From positions 1 through 21,936 of the IMG/VR virus record IMGVR_UViG_3300031629_000096: 21,936 nt of DNA; one strand, given 5' to 3'. This document shows, one piece after another, positions 1,585 to 20,275 of the stretch. The first letter of the stretch is position 1, and the number at the start of each line of letters is the position of its first letter. The notes beneath the pieces are model-generated. The model worked only from the letters and a program-made list of their open reading frames with translations. It searched no databases and was not told the DNA's origin. This DNA is from a virus. A program made the position numbers and the translations under genes.

Positions 1585-1610
1585 AAGGGGCCTTAAGTGG
1601 CCCCTTTTTT
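1585..1610 (+). terminator. Rho-independent terminator between convergent modules
   Basis: An 8-bp stem, AAGGGGCC (1585-1592) with GGCCCCTT (1599-1606), has a 6-base loop and is followed on the plus strand by an uninterrupted T run (1605-1610). It starts 16 bases after the reductase stop codon. On the minus strand the stem is followed by a weaker T-rich stretch, so it may also stop minus-strand transcription, but only after the virion operon has ended. The T run reaches the stop codon of the convergent virion gene. Confidence 0.85.
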
Positions 1611-3495
1611 ATTCTTCGTCATTAGCCATCATCATTCCTGTCCCTACTCCGGCCCCTGCACCTACTGTCCCAGCGGCAGCGAGTTTAGCTTTTGATGCGT
1701 TAGCTGCACCTATGTGTCTTTGTTGGGCTACAACAGGTTTGGTCATTGCTTTCTTCGTGTAGCTTTTAGCGTTAGCAAGATAGTTTTTACCTGTGGCGTT
1801 AAGAGTTCCTTTTGGAGCAGGGATTCCCGTCAGTTCTTCTGTTCTTCGCACAGCAGCCGCTACGTTTTCACGAGTGTTCATTGTTTTATGCTGCTTTGTA
1901 AATCCTTTTGTTCCCCACTTTTCCATAGTAATTGGTTGAACAGTAATTAAAGGATGTCCTCCCGCAGGGTTTAAACCGAAGATGTCATGACCGTCACTAA
2001 TCATAGAATAATTTACTTGATTATAAGGATCAACAACAAACATGTGGTTAACACCACCAAGCTCTTTTTGTTCTGAAGCGTAAGAAGTTTGAGTAGACAT
2101 AAAACCTTCAGGCTTTTTAATGTTATTATAGTCTAAACTGCTAACCACGTTCCCTGCTTCATCTCTTAAAGTGGCTGGCTTAATAGCACCTGTGCCTACT
2201 GCTTCATCAAAAACTTTTAAAGCAGCAGCTTGGGTTGGTGTTAGCTTTTTACCAGTTCTTTGATAGAGTCTTGCTTTACTTATACGATCTAACAACTGAG
2301 CATTGGTTACTTTAAGGTCTGTCGTATCTAACATTTGATTAAGCATGATAGTAGTTTTCTTGTCTAGCGTTGCAGCTAGTTGTGTAAACTCTACTACATC
2401 TCTAGGATCAACTTCTGTAGCTTTAGAACCTTTAGTTGCTGTTGCGTTACTAACTGTTTTAATATAACTATCAAAAGGAGAAACACTTTTCCCTGCTTCA
2501 GTACCTGTGTTAAACGCACGAGCAAGGGCAGAACCTTTACTTGCAAAACCAGCAGACTCTACGTTACCTACTGTTCTGCTGGATTCTAAACTTTTGACTT
2601 GTACTTCATATAGCCTACCGTCACCTGTTTTTACATGAGGCCCCTCAGTAACATGTCTAGTAAACTTGTTTACAATATTGTCAGGAATGTTTGCTTCAGT
2701 ACGGAAGCCGTTACCTATGCCAGCAGCTATTCTGTCTACATCAGCTATGTCTATTGCTCTATCATAATAAGTAAGGCCGTCAACACCCTGTGCTAATGCT
2801 CCTCGCTGATCCACGGGTATAATATCGTTACCTTTCTGAGCCTCGATAGCTAACGCTGTCTTCTCCGCGTCTTCGTTAAGCCCTACAGCCTCATCTCCTT
2901 TTCCTTTTGCACGTAGCCTTTCAGCGGGCGCACCTTCGCCTATAATATCTTTAACTTTTGTTTCAGACGTTCCCCATGTTTCCTCGAATGCTCTGGCTGC
3001 TGGGTCTATTCTAGCTTTAACCGCTTGAGGTACATGAGCCACAGCCTCCTTACCGAAAGACTTAACTGCGGTAAGTGGATTACCTGAATAAAAGTCTTTA
3101 ATAAACGTAGGCATGTCCGTAGCTACTTGATTTACAAAATTCCCTGAACTTTTAAGCAGTCCTTTAGCTACACGAGGGGCATAACCTAAGAGAGGTATAG
3201 CTCCTAAAGCCCCTAATGTAGCCATGCCGTAGTTGCCTTTTTGGAAGTCTTCTACAGCTTCTTTACCAGAGATAACCTCACCAGTCCCGGGAGTTAAAGA
3301 AGCAACAATGTATGCGCCTTCCTTAGCTCTACGCCTACGTTCTTCTGGAGTAAGGCTTGCATAAAGTTCAGCACCATTAGGTTGTGCTGCCATATCTCTG
3401 CGCATATCTCTGCCCATATTTCGAAGGCCGTCCAAAAAAGAAGTGTCTGGCTCTTCAACCAACTGATTAAGTCTTTTTAGCGTTTCGTCAGCCAT
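1609..3495 (-). CDS. Large virion (probable ejection) protein, possible ART-like C-terminal region
   Basis: A 628-residue protein and the last gene of the virion operon. I do not recognise a named family with confidence. It is placed as a DNA-ejection or internal virion protein because it follows three similar large proteins distal to the tail nozzle gene. Visible features: a charged N-terminus with an Arg run (53-56); a hydrophobic Gly/Ala segment at about 91-110; a long helical, Lys/Glu/Ala-rich middle; and a mixed alpha/beta region at about 440-530 containing TLRDEAG (R444), GFMSTQTS (467-471), HMFVVDP and HDIFGLNP. That order resembles the R-S/T-S-(E) layout of ADP-ribosyltransferases, though the usual catalytic Glu is not evident and D504 lies near its place. 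The C-terminus has a Gly/Ala/Val hydrophobic stretch (605-623). The start follows a strong AGGAGG and overlaps the previous stop by one base (TAATG). Structural role moderately sure; enzymatic role speculative. Confidence 0.6.
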   Translation of the reverse strand: MADETLKRLNQLVEEPDTSFLDGLRNMGRDMRRDMAAQPNGAELYASLTPEERRRRAKEGAYIVASLTPGTGEVISGKEAVEDFQKGNYGMATLGALGAIPLLGYAPRVAKGLLKSSGNFVNQVATDMPTFIKDFYSGNPLTAVKSFGKEAVAHVPQAVKARIDPAARAFEETWGTSETKVKDIIGEGAPAERLRAKGKGDEAVGLNEDAEKTALAIEAQKGNDIIPVDQRGALAQGVDGLTYYDRAIDIADVDRIAAGIGNGFRTEANIPDNIVNKFTRHVTEGPHVKTGDGRLYEVQVKSLESSRTVGNVESAGFASKGSALARAFNTGTEAGKSVSPFDSYIKTVSNATATKGSKATEVDPRDVVEFTQLAATLDKKTTIMLNQMLDTTDLKVTNAQLLDRISKARLYQRTGKKLTPTQAAALKVFDEAVGTGAIKPATLRDEAGNVVSSLDYNNIKKPEGFMSTQTSYASEQKELGGVNHMFVVDPYNQVNYSMISDGHDIFGLNPAGGHPLITVQPITMEKWGTKGFTKQHKTMNTRENVAAAVRRTEELTGIPAPKGTLNATGKNYLANAKSYTKKAMTKPVVAQQRHIGAANASKAKLAAAGTVGAGAGVGTGMMMANDEE

Positions 3496-5216
3496 TATTG
3501 TACACCCTCCTGCATTTCCTCTTCAGTAATATCTTCTGCTTGAGTCGTAGGTAGTTTCATGATCTCAACAATAAACGCCCTGTCAGCAGCAAGTGCTTTT
3601 TTCATAGTTGAGTTTTTAGTTATTTTAATAGCATCATCAGTTTGCTTCAACACACCAGCTAAAGATTTTCTAACATTAGGGCTGATAGCACCACGCCTAA
3701 CTGCATAGCCAATAGCTCCCGCGGCTCCAATTGTTGTAGCTATAGGTAAGTAACCTGAAAGAGTCAAGCCGCTTACAGCTCCTACACCTAAAGAGGCCAT
3801 AACGTATTGACTAATAGCAGACGAAGGAGCTTTAGTTCCTGTACTACCTTCGATGTTTTGAACAATACGACCTACTTTTAAATTTGCTTCGTGTGCAGCT
3901 TTGTCCAGAACATTGTCATGCGCTTGTAACCAGAGGTGCATCTTACGCAAGTCTTTACGTACATTAATATCAGGTACAGCTTCAGCAACTTTAAGGTTTA
4001 AATGATTACGCATTGCTCTAGTAGCGATGTCAATACCATTCTGCTTGTTACCATCCCAGTTACCTTTACCTAACTTACTAAGCTCTGTGTCAATCTGTCT
4101 ACGAACATCTAAAATACTTTTAACGGAACCGTCAGATTTGTTGACTAAAGACTCAACTAAATTAAAGATTTTATTTGCAGAGGCTTCGGCATCTCCCACT
4201 AAAGCTGGGTTTTTTGTTTGGAGATTATCAGCTATGTCTTTTAATTCCGCAAGTATTTCTTTCTTATTTAACTTAACCTTTGACTTTTCTAACTTCCTAT
4301 CCAACGCTTTGTGTTTTGCTTCTACAGCTCTTGAAATAGTCTGACCATTCTCTGCAAAACTTAAACCGTCCTTTAAGTCTAACTCTAATAAATTACTAAC
4401 TATTTCTTCTTGATCTGCGTCAGGTACAACACTAAGTGTTCCAAACTTGTTTACTGCTTTTGTTTTAGCTTGCTCTCTAAGAACCTCTGTTGTTTCTACG
4501 GGTCTTGAAAGATCGAATAAAAAAGCACGGTCTGCTTTAGTTTGTTTTTTGCGTCCTGATTCATATAGCTTATCTGCTGCTCTACCTAGTAACGAGGGCG
4601 CTGTATCAGGCACAGGGTTCCGTAAAGGTGGTGGCTTTAACCACTCAGCTACGTTAACGACACCCTCAATGGAAGCGGCTCCGTTAGGGTTCTCATTCTT
4701 AAAGTTAACCCAAGAGTCTCTAAGAAAACCTGCTGGCCCACTAAGGATGTCTAACCCCTTCTTAGTCACAGGGTTGTCTATTAATGGAGTCATAGTGCTT
4801 ATTACTTTGTTAGCTACGTATTCCTCCATTGCATTAGGGACAATCTGAACCATTGCATTCTTTGTCGCAACCTTTATACCTTCACTAAGGTACGTGTTTA
4901 AAGCATCAAAACCGCCTTTAGCCCCGATATTAAAAGCAGCTTGAGGCGCACCTATGTCTCCTTGTGTAGCAGCTAAAAACTGCTCTCCTGCAAAGCGTTT
5001 AAAATCTTGAGGGACATTGGAAACGCCTTCCTGAAACCCTTGTAAATCTTTACGGCCAAAGCTCTCAGAAGCAACATAACCTCCTTGATCAACTTTTTCT
5101 GCTTTCTCTCGTTGAGTAACCTGCTCTTGTAGCAAAGGGGTCAGCTCATTGATAGCCGTTATGTTTTTTTGCGTAATAGCTTGTTGAATAGCAGCTCTTA
5201 GTTGATCTTCATTCAT
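3495..5216 (-). CDS. Large virion (probable DNA-ejection) protein with hydrophobic C-terminal segment
   Basis: A 573-residue protein with no family recognised by name. The N-terminus is a Gln/Lys-rich helical region, followed by long amphipathic helical stretches and a Lys/Leu/Asp/Ala-rich middle typical of internal virion proteins. Residues about 471-505 (YVMASLGVGAVSG...) are strongly hydrophobic and Gly/Ala-rich and could insert into a membrane. Such a segment fits a protein that leaves the capsid and helps form a channel through the host envelope during DNA delivery, but this is inference from composition and gene order. The ATG overlaps the preceding gene's stop as ATGA. Its GGAG Shine-Dalgarno lies in a small palindrome (GGAGTTACTCC) immediately before the ATG, which suggests coupling to translation of the upstream gene. 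Confidence 0.6.
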   Translation of the reverse strand: MNEDQLRAAIQQAITQKNITAINELTPLLQEQVTQREKAEKVDQGGYVASESFGRKDLQGFQEGVSNVPQDFKRFAGEQFLAATQGDIGAPQAAFNIGAKGGFDALNTYLSEGIKVATKNAMVQIVPNAMEEYVANKVISTMTPLIDNPVTKKGLDILSGPAGFLRDSWVNFKNENPNGAASIEGVVNVAEWLKPPPLRNPVPDTAPSLLGRAADKLYESGRKKQTKADRAFLFDLSRPVETTEVLREQAKTKAVNKFGTLSVVPDADQEEIVSNLLELDLKDGLSFAENGQTISRAVEAKHKALDRKLEKSKVKLNKKEILAELKDIADNLQTKNPALVGDAEASANKIFNLVESLVNKSDGSVKSILDVRRQIDTELSKLGKGNWDGNKQNGIDIATRAMRNHLNLKVAEAVPDINVRKDLRKMHLWLQAHDNVLDKAAHEANLKVGRIVQNIEGSTGTKAPSSAISQYVMASLGVGAVSGLTLSGYLPIATTIGAAGAIGYAVRRGAISPNVRKSLAGVLKQTDDAIKITKNSTMKKALAADRAFIVEIMKLPTTQAEDITEEEMQEGVQ

Positions 5217-6589
5217 GGAGTAACTCCTAACCCAGTAGTGTCGATACCCATTCCTTTCAACATATCAAGAGTTCCTTGAGATAAAGGTTGCTGTACGGAG
5301 TTTAACTGAGTTGAACTATCAAACTTTTCAGGTTGTGCGATATAGAAAGCGTTTGTAAGAGCTGTGGTATCTTCTCCACGACCCGCAGCAAGAGCCATTA
5401 CACCTTCAAGAGTTTCGTTGTTTAAGGTGATAGCAGTACGTGCTACTCGTTCTTCAAGGTCTAACAATCTATTAATTGACTCTGCGGTAAGAGAAGAGTC
5501 AGCACCTTTAATACCTACAAGGAACTTTCTATCTTGTTCCGTGAAGCCTTGACCACCACCAAATATATCAATAGACGCTAACACAGCCTCGCCTCTGGAA
5601 GCCATTAATGCTCTAGAAGCAGCTACACCGTCCATATATTTTGTAGGTAACAGCCCAGACTCATTAATAATCTCTAATGATTTGTTAGCCCAGTCCGTTC
5701 CAAAACCAGTACGCACACCTTCTCTTAATATCTGCCTAGTGTCTGCATTTGTCGCCATTACTTTAGCAGCAGATTTAGCATCTTTAAAGACTTCTAAGTA
5801 TTCGTCAGTAAGACCTTGTGTTAACTTAGAGATGACAGTGTTTGCTTGGCTAAGTGTTTTCTGTACAACAGGAGACGGCATTAAACCTAAGTCGCTAGGG
5901 TCTACCCACTTATCTGTGCCCTCGTCCATAACCTGTCCTGCTTCGTTGACACGATAAACTAAGTTAGTTTCTACACCGTTCTCCACGCGCTTGTATGGTT
6001 GTAGTTTAGCCTTACGTCCTTGTATTTTCTCAAGGAACAATGTGTCTGAGAAATCGTTATAATCACCGTTTGCAATAGCTTTCAAAACTACATCATCAGC
6101 GCCATACTGCTTTGCTAACGCTATGCGGCCTTGAAGCCCTCGCTTACTTATAAGGTCACGTTCTTCAGCTTCCATAACTTGCTTGGTAGCCACCTCTAAA
6201 TCACCACCACTTTTAATTATTTCAGCAGTCTCTTCTAAGCCTAGTTTTGTAGCCTGTGCAAGTAGACCTGTTCGTTTAGTCTTTTCTTTTCTACGTGCCT
6301 CAAGCTGCGCTGCAATCTTACCTGCACCAGCAGTATTACCAGTCATCTGCATGATCTCAGCCAGCTTACTCAAGTCTTCCGTCTTGTTTAAATCTAAATT
6401 ACCCATGAGCTTTTGCAATTGAGCTGCTTGTGCGCCCTGTGGTGGTTGTCCTTGCATGCTTCTCATGCCACCCTGCATCATATTGGCAGCGTTAGCGCCT
6501 AGAGCTAACTGCTGTTGCTGTACGCTTAAACTAGGGTTAATCTGCTGGCCTGCGCCACCTGTTAACATACCTTGTAAATCTATAGCCAT
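5213..6589 (-). CDS. Virion protein, probable DNA-ejection/internal protein
   Basis: A 458-residue protein. The first 60 residues are Gln/Gly/Met-rich and probably disordered. The rest is predicted helical with many Lys, Glu and Ala, including a basic RRKEKTKR stretch. Around residues 344-392 the sequence GQGFTEQDRKFLVGI followed by a helix with conserved-looking Leu, Arg and Asn resembles, as I recall it, the C-terminal part of injected proteins in other podoviruses. Together with its place between two other large helical proteins, this supports an internal or ejection role. The start is ATG after AGGAG with 8-base spacing, 11 bases beyond the previous stop (TAG). Function is inferred mainly from context. 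Confidence 0.6.
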   Translation of the reverse strand: MAIDLQGMLTGGAGQQINPSLSVQQQQLALGANAANMMQGGMRSMQGQPPQGAQAAQLQKLMGNLDLNKTEDLSKLAEIMQMTGNTAGAGKIAAQLEARRKEKTKRTGLLAQATKLGLEETAEIIKSGGDLEVATKQVMEAEERDLISKRGLQGRIALAKQYGADDVVLKAIANGDYNDFSDTLFLEKIQGRKAKLQPYKRVENGVETNLVYRVNEAGQVMDEGTDKWVDPSDLGLMPSPVVQKTLSQANTVISKLTQGLTDEYLEVFKDAKSAAKVMATNADTRQILREGVRTGFGTDWANKSLEIINESGLLPTKYMDGVAASRALMASRGEAVLASIDIFGGGQGFTEQDRKFLVGIKGADSSLTAESINRLLDLEERVARTAITLNNETLEGVMALAAGRGEDTTALTNAFYIAQPEKFDSSTQLNSVQQPLSQGTLDMLKGMGIDTTGLGVTP

Positions 6590-6600
6590 TATTTTATCTC

Positions 6601-8235
6601 CTAGTAATCGTAATCTGAGCCAGAGAAGTCTATATTCTCTTCAAAAGAGTTTGAGGGGTTTATTCCCGCATAAACTTGATCAGTCGTTAGTCCGTATTTG
6701 GCTCCTATGCCGTATACATCAAGAGGTGCTTGTGCAGTTTCATCATTCCCGCCTCCAAACAAACCACTAAAGAAACCACCAATGCTATTCCCAACACTAC
6801 CAGCTAATCCGCCGCCTGCTTCAATAGGAGTTCCACCCAGCTTACCAATCATGGCATTCATTAGCTGCTCTTGAGCTGTCAGAGGTTTACCCACTGCTCC
6901 AGTCATAAGGCCCTGTAGCTGCTGCTGTTGTAGCAGGTTAGCCATGTTAGCACCTTGCATATAGGACTCAAGACCTCGACCACCAGCCTGTGATTGTAAC
7001 TCTGCACCGCCAAGCTGACCTTTAGCTGCCAGTTGCGAGGGTACACCTGATGCACCAAACAAGTCAATAGCTTGACGTTGTGGGTCATAACCAGCTTGCT
7101 GCAACATGCCGCCTAACTGACCAGCCTGTAGCTGCTCTGCTTGTGATTGTGTCCTAGCAGCAAGATTAGCGTTAAGCATAGACTCTTGACGAGCCTTCTC
7201 GTAAGCCATCTGCTCTGGAGTACCACCGTACATAGCTGTCTGAACACCCCCACGACCGCTAGAGAACAAGTTCTCCTGCATCTGTAGACGCTGACGTTCT
7301 TCTTCAGGCTGCTGTGTGGCTCTTATCTGCTCATAGAGGGCTGATTGTGCTGCTGCGGGGTCTGCACCTACCTGACCAAACAAGCCTTGTGACTGACCTA
7401 ATAGCTGCTGCTGCATAGCCTGTTGTTCTGGAGATAGGTTAAGATTAACACCACCTTCAGGAGTAGTCTGTACATTGGCTAGATTAGATGTTACACCAAA
7501 AGGACGGAACTGAGACTGGTCATAGGCTCGTTTGCCCATAGACTCGCCTAAGTCTAGACCTGCTTGACCTGTGGCCATAGCGCCTTCAATGCCCTGTTGT
7601 CCAGCGTAGTAGCCACCAGCGGCCTGTAATGCCCCGCTAAGGTCATTGCCTAACAGACCACCTAACAACGCACCACCATAAGCCACAGTGTTGCTAGGGC
7701 CGCTTGTAGAGGCTGCTGGGCCTGTTAGGACATCTGTTGTGTATGGACTGCCTTGAGGTGCGCTGCCGGTGGCCTGTGACATGGGGGCTGTAAGCATCCC
7801 ACGGTAATCATTTACAAAAGAAGGGTTAAGATTAGGATTTGCTTGTACATAAGCCTCAAACGCTGCTTTATCATCCCCGTAAGTACCTCTGTTATCTTGC
7901 TCAAAGTTCCAAAAATCTTGTTGTGCGCTGCCAAAACCAGTCTGAAAGCCTCCACCCATGTTGCCTTGTTGTACCTGTCTAATATTAGGATTGAACTTTG
8001 GTAATCCTGTTGTCTCATACCCTTGATCGGACGGCTTAAGGGCATAATCATCTGCAAAAACGGCTCTGGAAAAAGGAGCGATTCCAGAATGCTCAAATTC
8101 AGCAGCGGGGGCTCTACCCGTCATGTCGGGCTGTACCATTCTCATGTTACTTGGTAATTCATTGGGGTTGTACATGTTGCCATTCGGCCCTTTAACCATC
8201 ATCCCTCTATATTGTTGAAACTGATTAACCGCCAT
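6601..8235 (-). CDS. Gln/Gly-rich virion protein (tail or ejection component)
   Basis: A 544-residue protein unusually rich in Gln, Gly, Ala and Met. It has hydrophobic Gly-rich stretches at about 186-212 (GGALLGGLLGNDLSGAL) and 474-496 (GGGLAGSVGNSIGGFFSGLF), and a block TPEGGVNLNLSPEQQAMQQQ at about 258-277 that I associate with a conserved protein near the tail genes of marine phages, without being able to name a family. Between these lie Gln-rich helices. The C-terminus is acidic and Tyr-rich (SGSDYDY). The start is preceded by GGAGGAG at 7 bases and overlaps the stop of the small fibre-like gene by one base. A virion or ejection role is inferred from the operon position directly after the nozzle gene. 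Confidence 0.6.
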   Translation of the reverse strand: MAVNQFQQYRGMMVKGPNGNMYNPNELPSNMRMVQPDMTGRAPAAEFEHSGIAPFSRAVFADDYALKPSDQGYETTGLPKFNPNIRQVQQGNMGGGFQTGFGSAQQDFWNFEQDNRGTYGDDKAAFEAYVQANPNLNPSFVNDYRGMLTAPMSQATGSAPQGSPYTTDVLTGPAASTSGPSNTVAYGGALLGGLLGNDLSGALQAAGGYYAGQQGIEGAMATGQAGLDLGESMGKRAYDQSQFRPFGVTSNLANVQTTPEGGVNLNLSPEQQAMQQQLLGQSQGLFGQVGADPAAAQSALYEQIRATQQPEEERQRLQMQENLFSSGRGGVQTAMYGGTPEQMAYEKARQESMLNANLAARTQSQAEQLQAGQLGGMLQQAGYDPQRQAIDLFGASGVPSQLAAKGQLGGAELQSQAGGRGLESYMQGANMANLLQQQQLQGLMTGAVGKPLTAQEQLMNAMIGKLGGTPIEAGGGLAGSVGNSIGGFFSGLFGGGNDETAQAPLDVYGIGAKYGLTTDQVYAGINPSNSFEENIDFSGSDYDY

Positions 8236-8468
8236 TAGTATGCTCCTCCAGTTATTGTGTCAGCCGTTAGTGTACCAGTTACGTTTACGGTGGCGGCTGT
8301 GACAGTACCTGTAAATGTAGGGCCAGCAGTGTTAGCTTTAGTAGCACTGGCGGTAGATATATTGTTAAACTCTGTGTCAATCTCTGTGCCTTTAACAATC
8401 TTGTTGGGATCACCCGAACTTAGGGAGTCCTTAGTTGCAAAGTTAGTAGTCTTTGTGTAGTTGGACAT
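8235..8468 (-). CDS. Small fibre-like tail protein
   Basis: A 77-residue protein. The N-terminal half (GDPNKIVKGTEIDTEFNNIS) resembles the start of many phage tail-fibre-associated proteins. The C-terminal half is a low-complexity beta-type stretch, TFTGTVTAATVNVTGTLTAD, ending in ITGGAY. Its last residues match the end of the 397-residue fibre (LLGGTY), suggesting related C-terminal modules. It sits between the nozzle and a virion protein, with one-base TAATG overlaps on both sides and an AGGGAG ribosome-binding site. It is probably a minor tail appendage or a linker; the exact role is unknown. Confidence 0.65.
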   Translation of the reverse strand: MSNYTKTTNFATKDSLSSGDPNKIVKGTEIDTEFNNISTASATKANTAGPTFTGTVTAATVNVTGTLTADTITGGAY

Positions 8469-10012
8469 TAGATAAGTCTCCCTAGTAGAGCGTGTATGTC
8501 AATTTTTTGAATAGAAAAAGGTGAATCGTTAACTTCAGCTTCAATACCAATAGTCACTACCTCACCGTTACCGCTGGTGTTGACTTTAGGTGTTTGAATA
8601 ACAATAGACGCTGTGTACTCGCCTGTTGTGTTGTACTCTGTGACTCCGTACTCAGCAGCGGAAGCAGTACCAAAAGTCAATGCTTGCTTAGTGTAATCAG
8701 AGGTGTAGTCATAGCCCCAGTTAAGCGTTGACTCTGTGTTCTGACCACCGATAATAGTTACATTAAACTTCTTTAAAAACTTTAAGTTAGAAGCGTTACC
8801 AAAGTCTAACGGGTTGCTGAAGTAACGCATCTGATATTTAGTAGTACCATCTAGGTACGAGCCATACTCAACAATGCCTTCATCGTGTCCCATGTACAAA
8901 TGATCATCTGCAAAGATAGAGAAAGAAATAGGATTAATAGCAGTCCATGTTGTTGCACGATATGCTCCGTTCTCTAAAGCCTGTCTAAGATCAAAACAAT
9001 AAACTAAAGAACTGTCAGGGAAGGTTATCAAATAGAAAGCGTCTATCGGGCTGTAGATGGACTTAATAGCTTCTCTGTGACCGTTCGCGTGAGTCTCTTG
9101 TGCCAGTGTTTGCAACAAGTCAGATCGTACATTCTTGCTTATATCGTTCAGCGGTAAAGACTTCTCTTGAACAACACGGCCTAGTGACATAACACCACGA
9201 CTAGACAAGAAGAACAGATCACTACCTGTAGACTGCACAGAATCCCTAGCAACACAACCAACACCTTCAATAGTGTCATGTAGCTTTAGATCAGAAGAAG
9301 GACTCTCAGCGCCTGTGTAAATGATGATGCTCTTCTTACCAAAGATAATTAGGAAGCCGTTATGCTCTGCAAGCGACACAACCTCGTCAAAACCCGTAGG
9401 CCAAACAGTTGTTAAATCTACAGATCCTGAAGAACCACCATGCCAGTCATCACCAGCTAGCAGAGAACTCCAATATACTGTGTACTTGTTGCCAGCTAAA
9501 TCGCAAGTCCATACTCTACCAAAAGCAGCTAAGACTTCATTACCTTGGGGAGCAGAGTTACCGCCTGTGGAAGTTAAACCAACAAGCGTAGTAGAACCAG
9601 CAACACTTTCTAAAGGCTGGTGACCACTTTGATAGAAGTAAACATCGTTGTTAAACGACATAACCTTCCAGTTGTTGTCCGTGATAGTGTAGCCAGCAGG
9701 AAGAGTTACTTCAACAAGTGTAGTAGTGCCTGTAAATATCTTATTGTTACCACAGCTAAAGACAGTTGTTACACCTGCTCTGTTGATAAACTCAAACACA
9801 ACCTCTATACCACGGCTGCTGCCTAGGACTGCTGCGCCATTAGTTGTGACTGTTTTGTAGCCCTTACGCGCAGCAATACGGCCTAGCTTATCAATAATAC
9901 AATTGTCAGCAATAGAGGCATAGGAAGGATCTAGACCAATAGGTGACTCTTGAGTGTTTAACCCAAAAAATCCCGGCGCTGCTACTGTAATGTTCTGTAG
10001 TTGTTGTGCCAT
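8468..10012 (-). CDS. Tail nozzle / packaged-DNA stabilisation-like protein
   Basis: A 514-residue protein of mainly beta character. It begins with GFFGLNTQESPIGLDPSYAS, followed by CIIDKLGRIAARKG, the usual opening of podovirus tail hub or nozzle proteins in which the polypeptide wraps into a beta-propeller. Repeated strands such as GFLIIFGKKSIIIYTG, DLFFLSSRGVMSLG and DDHLYMGHDEGIVEYG are consistent with propeller blades. The C-terminal part (about 400-514) looks like a separate beta domain. It would close the tail tube below the adaptor ring and hold packaged DNA. It follows the adaptor gene directly (TAAATG) with no strong Shine-Dalgarno, so it is probably translationally coupled. The alternative name is tail tubular protein B-like. 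Confidence 0.72.
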   Translation of the reverse strand: MAQQLQNITVAAPGFFGLNTQESPIGLDPSYASIADNCIIDKLGRIAARKGYKTVTTNGAAVLGSSRGIEVVFEFINRAGVTTVFSCGNNKIFTGTTTLVEVTLPAGYTITDNNWKVMSFNNDVYFYQSGHQPLESVAGSTTLVGLTSTGGNSAPQGNEVLAAFGRVWTCDLAGNKYTVYWSSLLAGDDWHGGSSGSVDLTTVWPTGFDEVVSLAEHNGFLIIFGKKSIIIYTGAESPSSDLKLHDTIEGVGCVARDSVQSTGSDLFFLSSRGVMSLGRVVQEKSLPLNDISKNVRSDLLQTLAQETHANGHREAIKSIYSPIDAFYLITFPDSSLVYCFDLRQALENGAYRATTWTAINPISFSIFADDHLYMGHDEGIVEYGSYLDGTTKYQMRYFSNPLDFGNASNLKFLKKFNVTIIGGQNTESTLNWGYDYTSDYTKQALTFGTASAAEYGVTEYNTTGEYTASIVIQTPKVNTSGNGEVVTIGIEAEVNDSPFSIQKIDIHALLGRLI

Positions 10013-10657
10013 TTAAGAGTACCAGATAGTTTCTTCAGGGTGTTGTGAAGCATCAATAGCAATAGCATCAGCAAGTGTTCTGTCGGCTAGACCAAACAAC
10101 TCTGCTGCGCTTGTGCCACCAGTTTCTCCACGCTCTCTAGCGCCTAATGCTGTAGCTAGTTGTACCACAGCAGAGGAGGGGATAGTCATGTTGTCAGTGT
10201 CTTGAGTAAAGTCCGATGTACGTAGAACCACGTTAAAGCGTAGCTGGAACACACCGCTAGGCTTAGGGTAGACATCAACAGCGTTGTCGCCGTTAGCATC
10301 TACACCGTTGAAGCTGTAGAACTGTGGTGAACCAATAGGCGGTGTCTCGATCAAGAAGGCATTGTCCATCCAACGTGAAGGACGGTACTGCATAAAAAAG
10401 TCTGAGGTGTCATTAATAACATCTAAGAGCTTCATACGGTTCTGAGAGCCTGTTAGGACGTAGTTAAAGGTGTCTGATGTTGTTGAGACAGTCAAGGTAG
10501 TGCGTAAGGCCGTCCAGTCGTAAGAGTCCTCTACAGTCCTTTTAGCATCATTAACAAACTCACCTACAAGTTTAGAGTAACTGTTTTGAGAGACACTAGA
10601 TACTTCTTCTTCTCTAAGTCTACGGAGTACACTATTAACTAGCTGTAAGTATGTCAT
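10013..10657 (-). CDS. Head-tail adaptor (tail tubular protein A-like)
   Basis: A 214-residue protein. It starts with MTYLQLVNSVLRRLREEEV and continues with helices around AKRTVEDSYDWTALRTTLTV, then a beta insertion (residues about 55-150), and ends with a helix (ALGARERGETGG...LADRTLADAIAID). This helix, W-rich loop, beta and helix layout is that of adaptor proteins that dock under the portal in SU10- and T7-like phages. Its position immediately before the nozzle gene agrees. It starts three bases after the 663-residue gene with a weak AAAGG ribosome-binding site. I am fairly sure of the role and less sure of the subfamily. Confidence 0.7.
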   Translation of the reverse strand: MTYLQLVNSVLRRLREEEVSSVSQNSYSKLVGEFVNDAKRTVEDSYDWTALRTTLTVSTTSDTFNYVLTGSQNRMKLLDVINDTSDFFMQYRPSRWMDNAFLIETPPIGSPQFYSFNGVDANGDNAVDVYPKPSGVFQLRFNVVLRTSDFTQDTDNMTIPSSAVVQLATALGARERGETGGTSAAELFGLADRTLADAIAIDASQHPEETIWYS

Positions 10658-10659
10658 TG

Positions 10660-12651
10660 TTAAAACCTTTGTTGTTGATCAAAAGAAGAAGAAAAGGAGG
10701 AAGTCAAGAAATCTTCAATGTCTATAAGCTCTTCCCTGTCAGTAATGCCTACTTCTGTTTTAAATTTAAATAGTTCATTTTCAAATAATTTGTTAGTTGT
10801 AGCATTTGCTTGTGGTGTCAGTAAGCCCGTCATCATACCCATGTTACCCAGCGTAAAGCTAGGCAGGTTGAAATCTGGTAAGTTTATATCTGGTAAGTTT
10901 ATGTCTGGGAAGTTTATGTTAGGCAGTGCGTCTCTAATTGCCGTATCTAAGTCTGACAAAGCATCGCCAGCAGGCTGTATAACAGCATCATCAAACGCAC
11001 TAGCAGCGTCTCTAGCTGCTGTGTCTGCTGCCGATAGAACATCACCTGTAGCACTAGCACCTGCTTCAACTACTTGTATAACTGGTTGTATGACCTCATC
11101 GTCAACAACGCTCAGTACATCACCTACAACACTAGCGCCTTCTTCAATTACTTTTTTAGTGGGCTGTAGAACATTGGCATCTACTGTTTTTCCTGCTGTT
11201 TCAATTACTTTTTTAGTGGGCTGTAGAACAGCATCATCAAATGAACTTCCTAGGTCTTTAAGAGTATCTACAAGACCGCTACCGTTAACGTCAGGAATAG
11301 AGTCTTCAACAAAATCAGCAAGTGCTGTACCTACCGCACCAATAGGTCGAACAATGTCTCTAACAATATCTTCAATACCGCCTAAAGGTATATCAAGAGT
11401 TCCTCCGTCTCTAACATATTTGCTAAAGCCGCTAAGAAGAGCCTCATCAAAATCAGCACCGCCTACTGCTGCTTGTACAGTCCTGTCTACACCTGCTCTA
11501 AAGTCATCAGGCTGAATTCCTTTCTTTGTCAGAGTTGTTTCATCTAAACCTATTTTTTCTAAACCGGTGGTTACTAAGTCTTTTCCTATGTCAGTGCCCA
11601 TAACTAAGTTAAGAGCAGCCCCTTCAATATCACCAGCAGACGCTACGTTAATAGCTGTAGCTGTTTGAGCGTAAGTAGTGCCAAACAAGCCTGTGCCTGC
11701 GTCTGCTACTGCTGTACCTAAGTCTGGTGAAAACGGGTTTATGTTTCCTAACGCGTCACTATACTCTCCGTTATTAAAAACAACAGGTTTTTTAATAGCT
11801 CCTGCCATCTCTAGCCCTGTCATTGCCGCTGTAGCTATTTCCATAGGAGAAAGCTCAATGCCCGCTGCTGCTTTAGCTCCTGTAATAGCAAGCGTACCTC
11901 CCGGAATAAAGCTGGCAGCAACTCCAATAATAGGATCATTAAGAACTTGAGTGACTAAATTATCGTCTTTTCTAAAGGTAGTTGAGTACGACCCTACAGG
12001 GCCAGTAGCTACAAGATCACCACCAACAAACTCGTCTTTCCACAACTCTTGGTTAGCTTGGTCATTACCTGTTGTTAAATACTGACGCTTTCCGTCTATG
12101 ATTTTAGACAGAGGTATGTCGTTCTGTGTTACATACTCAGCAAGCCCTGTGCCAGCAGCTCTATTGCCTTCTCGTAAAGATACTGATGTCCTACCAAAAT
12201 CGCTGGGGTCAAAGTTGTTGTAATTGTATACTTTGTTTACTTGCTCTTCTTGACTTTTTAACGTGTTAAAGACATTACCATAGTTAGCAAGGGCTTCATC
12301 AGGGCTTCCAAACGTAGGCTGTGCGCCGAAGTCTTGTACTGACAAACCAGAAGTAGAAGCAGTTGTAGGGACACGCTCTGTAGGCGCTGGTGTAGGATTA
12401 ACAGTTTCACGTAAAGCGTTCATGTCTAAACCGCTAAGGTCTAAATCAATACCGCTAAAGCCGCTAAAGTCCATATCAAAAGGACTAGCCAATGAAGCAA
12501 ACTCTTCAGGAGCTGGTTGAACTACAGACTTTACAGGATTACTAACTACAGGATACGCAGGGCCACTAGCAAGTGCTGCCGCACGTTGGGCCGCTGCTGC
12601 TGCCACTGCTGCATTGACTCGATTGTTTGTACTGTAACGTCCACCACCCAT
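10660..12651 (-). CDS. Unknown 663-residue virion protein with internal repeats
   Basis: Not recognised. The N-terminus is Ala-rich (AAVAAAAAQRAAALASG), followed by a Ser/Asp/Gly/Leu-rich linker (SGIDLDLSGLDM). The centre has Ala/Gly-rich hydrophobic helices (IIGVAASFIPGGTLAITGA) that could be membrane-active. Residues about 470-580 contain degenerate repeats built on V(L/I)QPTKKVIE and ASxxGDVLS, followed by a run of five-residue units (NINFP, DINLP, DINLP, DFNLP) and a C-terminal helical tail ending in SFDQQQRF. The high acidic content and the repeats suggest an elongated structural protein. It lies between the lysis cassette and the head-tail adaptor and overlaps the three-helix holin stop by one base. 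It could be a tail or ejection component; no catalytic motif is seen. Confidence 0.6.
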   Translation of the reverse strand: MGGGRYSTNNRVNAAVAAAAAQRAAALASGPAYPVVSNPVKSVVQPAPEEFASLASPFDMDFSGFSGIDLDLSGLDMNALRETVNPTPAPTERVPTTASTSGLSVQDFGAQPTFGSPDEALANYGNVFNTLKSQEEQVNKVYNYNNFDPSDFGRTSVSLREGNRAAGTGLAEYVTQNDIPLSKIIDGKRQYLTTGNDQANQELWKDEFVGGDLVATGPVGSYSTTFRKDDNLVTQVLNDPIIGVAASFIPGGTLAITGAKAAAGIELSPMEIATAAMTGLEMAGAIKKPVVFNNGEYSDALGNINPFSPDLGTAVADAGTGLFGTTYAQTATAINVASAGDIEGAALNLVMGTDIGKDLVTTGLEKIGLDETTLTKKGIQPDDFRAGVDRTVQAAVGGADFDEALLSGFSKYVRDGGTLDIPLGGIEDIVRDIVRPIGAVGTALADFVEDSIPDVNGSGLVDTLKDLGSSFDDAVLQPTKKVIETAGKTVDANVLQPTKKVIEEGASVVGDVLSVVDDEVIQPVIQVVEAGASATGDVLSAADTAARDAASAFDDAVIQPAGDALSDLDTAIRDALPNINFPDINLPDINLPDFNLPSFTLGNMGMMTGLLTPQANATTNKLFENELFKFKTEVGITDREELIDIEDFLTSSFSSSFDQQQRF
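10874..10918 (-). repeat. 15-bp tandem repeat encoding (D/N)INLP units
   Basis: Three near-identical 15-base units (10874-10888, 10889-10903, 10904-10918) inside the 663-residue gene encode consecutive five-residue units. Degenerate copies flank them on both sides. The in-frame 15-base length means copy-number change would not break the gene. Confidence 0.85.
11143..11230 (-). repeat. 31-bp perfect direct repeat in the 663-residue gene
   Basis: Positions 11143-11173 and 11200-11230 are identical over 31 bases and begin 57 bases apart, giving a 19-residue period. Each copy encodes VLQPTKKVIE. Further diverged copies of the peptide (VIQPVIQVVE, VIQPAGDALS) follow, so this is the most recent or best-preserved duplication. 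Confidence 0.88.
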
Positions 12652-13034
12652 TATCGCTCTCTCTGTACGTTCTTAGTCTTCTCTACTGTACGCATAGCAC
12701 CTAAGCCTAACATACCCATTAGTACGGTTGTAAGTAATGAGCTATCGACAGGTGGGACAGTAAACCAGATGTTTAGTATTGGAGCTAGGATAGTAGAGTA
12801 AAGTAGAGCTAGTCCACATATCCAACCTATTGCAGGTCTCCAGCCAGCGACAAACAAACTCTTATGTGCTGCCTCAACCTTGTTGACCTCTAACTGACCC
12901 TTGGCTAACTCTTGGGCGTGCTTCTCAGCCATAGTAGCTAGTTCAAAGGCTATAGCATTCTTTTGGTCTTTATCTTCAATTACTTTATCTAATAACTTAG
13001 TAACTGGATTAATTAAACTATTTAAAATACTCAT
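12651..13034 (-). CDS. Three-transmembrane holin-like protein
   Basis: A 127-residue protein. The N-terminal half is a charged helix (IEDKDQKNAIAFELATMAEK). It is followed by SLFVAGWRPAIGWICGLALL, the hallmark of the three-helix holin family known from gene transfer agents and many phages, and two further hydrophobic segments (LLYSTILAPILNIWF and LLTTVLMGMLGLGA). The C-terminus is basic. It would oligomerise in the inner membrane to release a lysin or trigger lysis. The start codon has no Shine-Dalgarno sequence, and a near-consensus promoter -10 element ends two bases before the ATG, so a transcript from that promoter would begin inside the gene. Translation therefore probably depends on upstream readthrough, or regulation is unusual. 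Confidence 0.78.
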   Translation of the reverse strand: MSILNSLINPVTKLLDKVIEDKDQKNAIAFELATMAEKHAQELAKGQLEVNKVEAAHKSLFVAGWRPAIGWICGLALLYSTILAPILNIWFTVPPVDSSLLTTVLMGMLGLGAMRTVEKTKNVQRER

Positions 13035-13036
13035 AT

Positions 13037-13065
13037 AGTATACACTATTTAGTCTTGTTTGTCAA
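13037..13065 (-). promoter_or_regulatory. Sigma70-type promoter abutting the holin start codon
   Basis: On the minus strand, TTGACA (13065-13060) and TATACT (13042-13037) are separated by 17 bases. The -35 lies in the last codons of the small holin gene, and the -10 ends two bases before the ATG at 13034. The expected start point (about 13029-13031) is within codon 2 of the three-helix holin. It could serve the distal tail and ejection genes rather than the holin itself. Confidence 0.6.
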
Positions 13066-13234
13066 GTAGTTTCTTACCATGCACAAGTTTCTGTACAGTG
13101 TCAGACTCGTATATCCTTAAAGCCATCCATATAATTGTTAACAAAGAAGCTGTTGGTGGTAACCATGCTGCCATTGTCAAAAAGGCTGTAGAAGCTGCTG
13201 CTACGTCTAGTATTTGTTTAGTCTCTTCTACCAT
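13049..13234 (-). CDS. Small holin-like membrane protein
   Basis: A 61-residue protein with an acidic N-terminus (MVEETKQ), two closely spaced hydrophobic segments (VAAASTAFLTMAAWLPP and ASLLTIIWMALRIYE) and a positively charged tail (VQKLVHGKKLLDKQD). The size, charge pattern and the ALRIYES...VQ motif resemble the small holins of T7-like and marine podoviruses. It overlaps the preceding gene by one base (TAATG) and lies 14 bases before a second, unrelated holin-like gene. The two may form a holin pair or a holin and antiholin; which one sets the timing cannot be told. Confidence 0.68.
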   Translation of the reverse strand: MVEETKQILDVAAASTAFLTMAAWLPPTASLLTIIWMALRIYESDTVQKLVHGKKLLDKQD

Positions 13235-17861: not shown

Positions 17862-17895
17862 AAAAGTAAAAAGGGGACTCCGCGAAGAATCCCCT
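17862..17895 (-). terminator. Rho-independent terminator after the major capsid gene
   Basis: On the minus strand a ten-pair stem (17895-17872, AGGGGATTC... with ...GAGTCCCCT, two G-T pairs) encloses a four-base loop and is followed by TTTTTACTTTTC. It lies within the 69-base gap between the capsid and fibre genes, the typical place for a partial terminator that makes capsid mRNA more abundant than downstream tail mRNA. Confidence 0.88.
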
Positions 17896-17906
17896 AGTTT
17901 GTTACC

Positions 17907-18848
17907 TTATACTACAGCTAGAGTGAAGCCTGCTTCTGGACGCATAACCTGAACGCCATACAAAGTATCAGCAGTGTAGAGAGTGCCTAAGAACTCCTGC
18001 TTGTACTGAGTCTGTGAACGTACAGCTTGCTGCTCTGCAAGAACGGAAGTGTCCTTGTGGATCAACTGTGCGCCACGGATAGAAGCACCACCAGTAGTGT
18101 CAATAACAGGTACGTTGGTAGAAACAAATACGTCAACACCATACAAGTTACCAATCTTACCAGTCTCTACAGTTTTACCGTTAACAAAATCGGTAGAAGT
18201 GTAACGCTCGATACCCATGATGGCATTACGAAGCGAAGGTGGTACGATGAAGCTGCGGTTGTCCATAGGAACGTCTGCGTCGTCCATCTTCTGGATTAAG
18301 CCACGGAATACAGCATCAGTGAAAACACCAATGTCACCAGCGCCGTCAGCGTCAAATGCTTCTAAAGCACCAGTGCTAGTGTTAATCTGGAAAGAACCAG
18401 TGTTAACATAGCTAGAACCATTACCGTTGCCGAAAGACTTAGCCAGCTCAAACAAATCAGTATCAACTTTCTTGGCTAGGCCATAACCTGCATCGCCTGT
18501 ATAGAACTGACGCAAAGAAGCGAGAGCCTGTACTTCGGTAATGTCTTCGATCATACGGGAGAATTCAAAGTGCTTGTTAATGTTAATCAGAACTTCTGAC
18601 TCTGTGCTGTTTTGGATAGTTACGGCAGTGCCTGCTGTCTTAGCATGAGCAGAACCACGAGCTGGTTTAGGGACGTGAATAACATCGCCTTTCTTACCAG
18701 TCATGCTCATCTTCTTAACGAGGTTAGCTAGAACTAGGTTAGTCTTGTACGCTGCAATTACTTCGTCACTCCAGATTTCTGGGATGAACTTAGCTGCGCT
18801 AGTGTTTGTTACTGCTCCACCCATTAGGGGATAAACTGAATCGGTCAT
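17907..18848 (-). CDS. Major capsid protein
   Basis: A 313-residue protein that builds the head shell. Visible features are an N-terminal arm (MTDSVYPLMGGAVTNTSAAK), then IWSDEVIAAYKTNLVLANLV, a basic loop (MTGKKGDVIHVPKPARG), the IQNSTESEVLININKHFEFS strand region, a long spine-like helix with KKVDTDLFELA, and a C-terminal strand region with AEQQAVRSQTQYKQEFLG. This matches HK97-fold capsid proteins of podoviruses. Position confirms it: directly after the scaffold gene, with a strong terminator behind. The start has AGGAAG eight bases before the ATG. The size is near the usual 300-350 residues for T7-type coat proteins. Confidence 0.88.
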   Translation of the reverse strand: MTDSVYPLMGGAVTNTSAAKFIPEIWSDEVIAAYKTNLVLANLVKKMSMTGKKGDVIHVPKPARGSAHAKTAGTAVTIQNSTESEVLININKHFEFSRMIEDITEVQALASLRQFYTGDAGYGLAKKVDTDLFELAKSFGNGNGSSYVNTGSFQINTSTGALEAFDADGAGDIGVFTDAVFRGLIQKMDDADVPMDNRSFIVPPSLRNAIMGIERYTSTDFVNGKTVETGKIGNLYGVDVFVSTNVPVIDTTGGASIRGAQLIHKDTSVLAEQQAVRSQTQYKQEFLGTLYTADTLYGVQVMRPEAGFTLAVV

Positions 18849-20198: not shown

Positions 20199-20232
20199 CA
20201 CTGTTTCTCCATTAAGGACAGTTGTTTAAGTG

Positions 20233-20246: not shown

Positions 20247-20275
20247 ATTATAACATAAAAGCATAAGAAAGTCAA
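20247..20275 (-). promoter_or_regulatory. Strong sigma70-type promoter for the head operon
   Basis: On the minus strand TTGACT (20275-20270) and a consensus TATAAT (20252-20247) are 17 bases apart, in the AT-rich gap between the 41-residue gene and the 86-residue gene. The expected start is near 20240. It would boost expression of the scaffold and capsid genes relative to the portal, and suggests use of host RNA polymerase for late genes. Confidence 0.8.

Follow-up and report, generated by a model that had tools for sequence, protein, structure and literature searches.

Which genes are served by a near-consensus promoter that lies directly on the start codon of a phage holin gene, and from which RNA would that holin be made? 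The question is raised by the window analyzed here, i.e., the entire 21,936 bases of the IMG/VR record IMGVR_UViG_3300031629_000096, possibly a fragment of the genome of an uncultured phage. A late operon runs on its minus strand from the portal gene (21928) to position 1609. It includes the major capsid protein gene (17907 to 18848; phrog_267, E = 3.9e-52), a 61-aa open reading frame (ORF) with a hydrophobic stretch (13049 to 13234) that recovered no Pfam or PHROG match, the gene for a predicted 127-aa holin of the GTA_holin_3TM family (gene A, 12651 to 13034; PF11351, 63.7 bits against a curated cutoff of 24.8, E = 3e-17; phrog_3427, E = 1.7e-38), gene B, and, by Pfam and PHROG assignments, the remaining co-directional genes for adaptor (10657 to 10013), structural, and unassigned proteins (1609 to 10657). 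Positions 1 to 1569 of the plus strand hold what we recognized by eye as a ribonucleotide-reductase-like gene, of which the 3' end is present and which converges on the late operon.

A near-consensus promoter abutting the holin ATG

In accord with the initial annotation, which had placed a TTGACA-17-TATACT promoter two bases before the holin ATG, we find on the minus strand a −35 hexamer TTGACA (13060 to 13065) within the 3' end of the 61-aa ORF and, after a 17-nt spacer in which that ORF ends, a −10 hexamer TATACT (13037 to 13042), with two bases between it and the ATG (13034 to 13032). The two ORFs are separated by 14 nt. The initial annotation mentions neither the strand of the promoter nor the termination of the upstream ORF in the spacer. 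The hexamers are of the TTGACA/TATAAT type with a spacer within the 16 to 18 nt of sigma70 promoters, and they match 11 of the 12 consensus positions (12 of 12 in some relatives), the consensus being that of Escherichia coli, which may not be that of the host. Taken by itself, such a match is not decisive: two sites with at least 11 of 12 matches occur in the window against 0.43 expected from Markov shuffles, a number that leaves room for a consensus match by chance, and since promoter-like sites overall show no excess (14, against 21.4 expected in scan shuffles), the case for the promoter rests on the comparison with relatives. For matches 0 to 4 nt from the 21 gene starts, the expectation is 0.001.

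For sigma70 polymerase, the excerpt of PMC5730371 on which we draw places the favored start 7 bp downstream of the −10 and gives a range of 6 to 9. By this 7-nt rule, an E. coli spacing that may not be the host's, the predicted +1 falls at 13030, the middle base of holin codon 2, and the predicted start zone covers 13028 to 13031, i.e., codons 2 and 3; the earlier suggestion that transcription would begin around codon 2 agrees with this placement.

Conservation of the promoter among relatives

Relatives were collected by two routes: the holin protein served as the query for one set of 80 loci, and the adaptor protein, so that the choice did not depend on the holin, for a second set of 80 loci. 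In the adaptor set together with the window (81 loci), where absence was scored only with at least 3,000 nt of upstream sequence, the promoter lies directly before the ATG in 42 loci and is absent from none, the 39 shorter loci being set aside; a loss of the −35 and −10 in close relatives, which the initial annotation had named as telling against it, was not encountered. TTGAC is present in all 42, and the TATACT of the window is the sole deviation from TATAAT, which the other 41 carry. Among 39 distinct promoter sequences, which were prefiltered on TTGAC and TATA[AC]T so that the conservation of their columns is not proof, the −10 ends 1 nt (4 sequences), 2 nt (31), or 3 nt (4) before the ATG. 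In the 13 loci compared, the upstream ORF stops as early as 64 nt ahead of the first −35 base and as late as 17 nt beyond it, and in one locus (L138) the gene behind the retained promoter encodes a different protein (phrog_2524); hence, the promoter is conserved independently of the neighboring coding sequence. On these comparisons, no relative with enough sequence lacks the promoter, which excludes a chance match, to which we assign a negligible probability, and the observation of a promoter on the ATG is confirmed in a stronger form than that in which it was first stated.

Outside the promoter clade, homologs of the holin have no such promoter (80 distinct upstream sequences). A −10 at the start codon is likewise absent from the six cultured or named records with a matching region (CRP-810, C72C1, CRP-823, Vibrio 1.183.O, HTVC112P, and CRP-831), among which we found no cultured member of the promoter clade.

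Two further observations concern this junction. The phrog_2524 protein, which is 125 aa long, replaces the 3TM holin in both L138 (672 to 1049) and L197, with the promoter and the first 15 bases unchanged. In L004, L005, and L018 and, in part, in L083 and L085, the stretch separating the upstream ORF from the −35 contains an inverted repeat, ACATAAAAGTGTA..TACACTTTATGT, that runs into the −35; it could be an operator.

Use of the holin start codon

The initial annotation had also noted that the holin ATG lacks a Shine-Dalgarno (SD) sequence, while almost all neighboring genes have one or overlap their predecessor, and the lack of an SD holds: pairing with the anti-SD core yields −1.8 kcal/mol, and of the 20 starts in the window whose upstream sequence is complete, just one is weaker (19938, +0.1), a start that overlaps its predecessor by 1 nt. 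The median energy is −1.8 in the promoter class (n = 46) versus −5.8 in the nonpromoter homologs (n = 31), a tendency and not a rule, as 11 of these 31 homologs have an SD weaker than −4. Across 20 distinct N-terminal sequences, the variation in codons 2 to 12 is mostly synonymous (e.g., AGT/TCT at Ser2 and AGT/TCC/TCG at Ser6), and the median dN/dS of the holin is 0.063 (577 pairs from 44 distinct 127-aa genes), which points to strong purifying selection. This coding constraint from the ATG onward indicates that the ATG at 13034 is used, i.e., that the holin is translated from it despite the absent SD.

Three other starts were considered and rejected. A dual-start holin/antiholin of the lambda S type is contradicted by the absence of the window's Met34 from L135 and L037; an internal GTG start at codon 11 after AGGG occurs in some relatives, while the window has GTT; and an in-frame start upstream of the ATG is closed off by an in-frame TAA.

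A second family at a T5-like junction

When viral contigs were scanned for the promoter followed by an ATG 2 nt later, at least 120 stretches were returned, with 80 loci and 83 matches inspected. Besides the holin family, at least 18 loci belong to a single family of ~130-aa proteins encoded between a helicase and a single-strand-binding protein (SSB); many other matches of this ATG-requiring scan open no real ORF. The second family occupies the T5-like junction of D10 (helicase), T5.125, and D11 (SSB), which is matched by 881 phage records, T5-like where inspected. Because the scan pattern required the ATG, the discovery of this family is ascertained; the count of its members that follows is not. 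From a protein-profile search (80 loci; 43 duplicates and 1 locus that was too short left out), there were 36 distinct loci, and all 36 have the promoter on the ATG, 2 nt away in 19 and 0 nt away in 17, a count that describes the marine branch and not all T5-like phages, as the profile was seeded with promoter-bearing members. In two loci from a separate sample (L375 and L376), the ATG begins inside the −10. The small gene (gene A) of this family is without an SD (median, +0.6; 32 distinct sequences), and the SSB gene behind it has a strong one (median, −7.1; 26 distinct sequences). By sequence, then, the same layout is present in a T5-like lineage unrelated to the holin family.

The promoters P31A and P31B of T5, which precede T5.125 and D11 (AY543070), are similar in being strong sigma70-type promoters at a junction homologous to that of the marine family. 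They differ in that P31B has a leader with GAGGAG between its −10 and the small gene, so that this gene is on the RNA, whereas the marine relatives no longer have this leader and their −10 directly adjoins the ATG. Proteus phage Stubb, like T5, has the promoter followed by a leader with an SD. Regarding the T5 gene itself (AY543070; L512, 317 to 425), T5.125 is annotated from the ATG at 425, but its frame extends farther upstream without a stop, and comparison with the homologous marine genes suggests a start at an ATT near 347, behind GAGGAG.

Strong phage promoters and the starts of genes

To set these families beside promoters chosen without regard to an ATG, we used a sample of 89 distinct promoters of the form TTGACA-N14-TGN-TATAAT with enough sequence. 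Seven of them (two from the T5-like family) touch or overlap the beginning of an ORF with at least 60 aa, against 1.1 expected and with 0 of 300 shuffles reaching seven, and nine stand 5 to 10 nt before an ORF start, the leaderless spacing, against 0.55 expected; the ORFs of this survey are mechanical, and its shuffles do not model real gene density.

The former count bears on the reading that the promoter is real and serves the downstream genes but that genome compaction accounts for its placement on the ATG, the skipping of the holin not being selected. The majority of late-gene gaps in the window are indeed <25 nt, and a promoter of 35 bp has to overlap something. We nevertheless consider this reading unlikely: along with the survey excess of promoters on ORF starts, the distance to the ATG is constant (1 to 3 nt in the holin family and −2, 0, or 2 nt in the T5-like family), and it stays so while the upstream gene ends shift by ~80 nt.

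The latter count, together with the missing SD of the holin, would favor a leaderless or near-leaderless local RNA that begins at or before the ATG and itself yields the holin, and leaderless RNAs exist. In a leaderless promoter, the start codon is at +1, about 6 to 7 nt past the −10, whereas the holin ATG stands only 1 to 3 nt from the −10 in 39 of 39 distinct sequences. Transcription of such an RNA would have to start 2 to 4 nt past the −10, outside the 6 to 9 nt given in the excerpt of PMC5730371, and the two T5-like loci in which the ATG begins inside the −10 itself argue further against it. We regard a leaderless origin of the holin as very unlikely.

Layout of the late operon and a proposed mechanism

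A second strong late promoter, TTGACT-17-TATAAT (20247 to 20275, minus strand), precedes the capsid genes with an ordinary leader and SD, there being 45 nt from its −10 to the GTG at 20201. An intrinsic-terminator-like hairpin lies 3' of the major capsid gene (17872 to 17895, minus strand), with a hairpin of the same type in 4 of 4 relatives scanned. The order of capsid promoter, ~2.4 kb, hairpin-T terminator, several kb, and holin promoter is common to the window and all four of these relatives. Ten larger relative records have between one and four TTGAC-N17-19-TATAAT sites apiece, and the reversed control pattern has none. Further sites precede a putative small terminase gene, named by eye (leader of ~140 nt), and the small gene located before the capsid genes (leader of ~46 nt; SD GGAG), and among the promoter sites inspected in relative records the holin site alone is without a leader. 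In the 10 records, which may be partial, searches recovered neither a T7-type RNA polymerase (PF00940; detected in the T7 positive control) nor a sigma region 4.

We propose that the site is probably a sigma70 promoter from which the tail/ejection half of the late operon would be transcribed, with its −10 and discriminator covering the holin start codon. Host RNA polymerase would start in holin codons 2 to 3 and make an abundant local RNA that extends from gene B onward. Since a start 6 to 9 nt past the −10 would leave this RNA without the holin AUG, the holin would be made only by read-through from RNA begun upstream, e.g., at the capsid promoter, part of which would stop at the terminator behind the capsid gene. 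The downstream genes would be boosted and the holin left out, all within the 14-nt gap. We infer a two-level operon, in which the tail fiber, lysis, and holin genes would be expressed by lower read-through and the tail/ejection genes by renewed transcription. The site, its conservation, the lack of an SD, the coding constraint on the holin, and the promoter-terminator layout support this proposal, as does the recurrence of the arrangement in the unrelated T5-like lineage.

Of the two uses that the initial annotation had envisaged for the promoter, this anatomy supports the first, in which the distal tail/ejection genes would be uncoupled from the holin, while interference by the polymerase as a lysis-timing device found no support. 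In the latter, promoter-bound polymerase would hinder read-through into the holin and set the time of lysis; the position of the promoter fits and near-consensus promoters can be slow to escape, but the T5-like junction has no lysis gene, and we judge this use quite unlikely.

If the local RNA begins as proposed, the first start codon on it would be that of gene B (663 aa; 10660 to 12651, minus strand; SD energy, −3.3), whose ATG shares 1 nt with the holin stop (TAATG). The gene B SD is weak in most of the holin clade (median, −3.3; 18 distinct sequences) and strong in a smaller subclade (L129, L131, and L134; −6.9 to −7.8); one locus yielded no gene B start. Given the weak SD and the TAATG overlap, translation of gene B may depend on coupling to that of the holin, which the local RNA would not provide; this counts against the proposal. 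Gene B varies in length from 493 to 1,446 aa across relatives (some cut by contig ends), unlike its neighbors.

Relation to known promoters and significance

Internal promoters of phage late operons boost distal genes from within or between genes. The holin promoter differs from these in being fixed on a start codon, where it takes the place of that gene's SD. Leaderless promoters such as lambda PRM have the −10 near the start codon and no SD, both of which are shared by the holin promoter, but their spacing is about 6 to 7 nt, compared with the 1 to 3 nt found here. In the literature searched, judged by titles and the beginnings of abstracts, we found no description of a phage promoter that overlaps a start codon. 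Internal promoters are known; the novelty, as far as we searched, is that two unrelated lineages each conserve a promoter in a position that buries the start codon of a gene read in the same direction.

We tentatively suggest, as a serious possibility that we place just short of probable, that burying a start codon under a promoter is a regulatory device that has been selected in marine phages and is present in at least two unrelated lineages. The body of the small gene would act as an untranslated leader, RNA begun upstream would be the only source of the small gene's product, and what follows (the SSB gene in one lineage and the tail genes in the other) would be expressed in bulk. If this is true, it would be a compact means of changing the expression level between adjacent co-directional genes, requiring neither a terminator nor a spacer at the junction. 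It would also explain conserved phage genes that have neither an SD nor a leader, and it would caution against taking such promoters as drivers of the gene that they touch.
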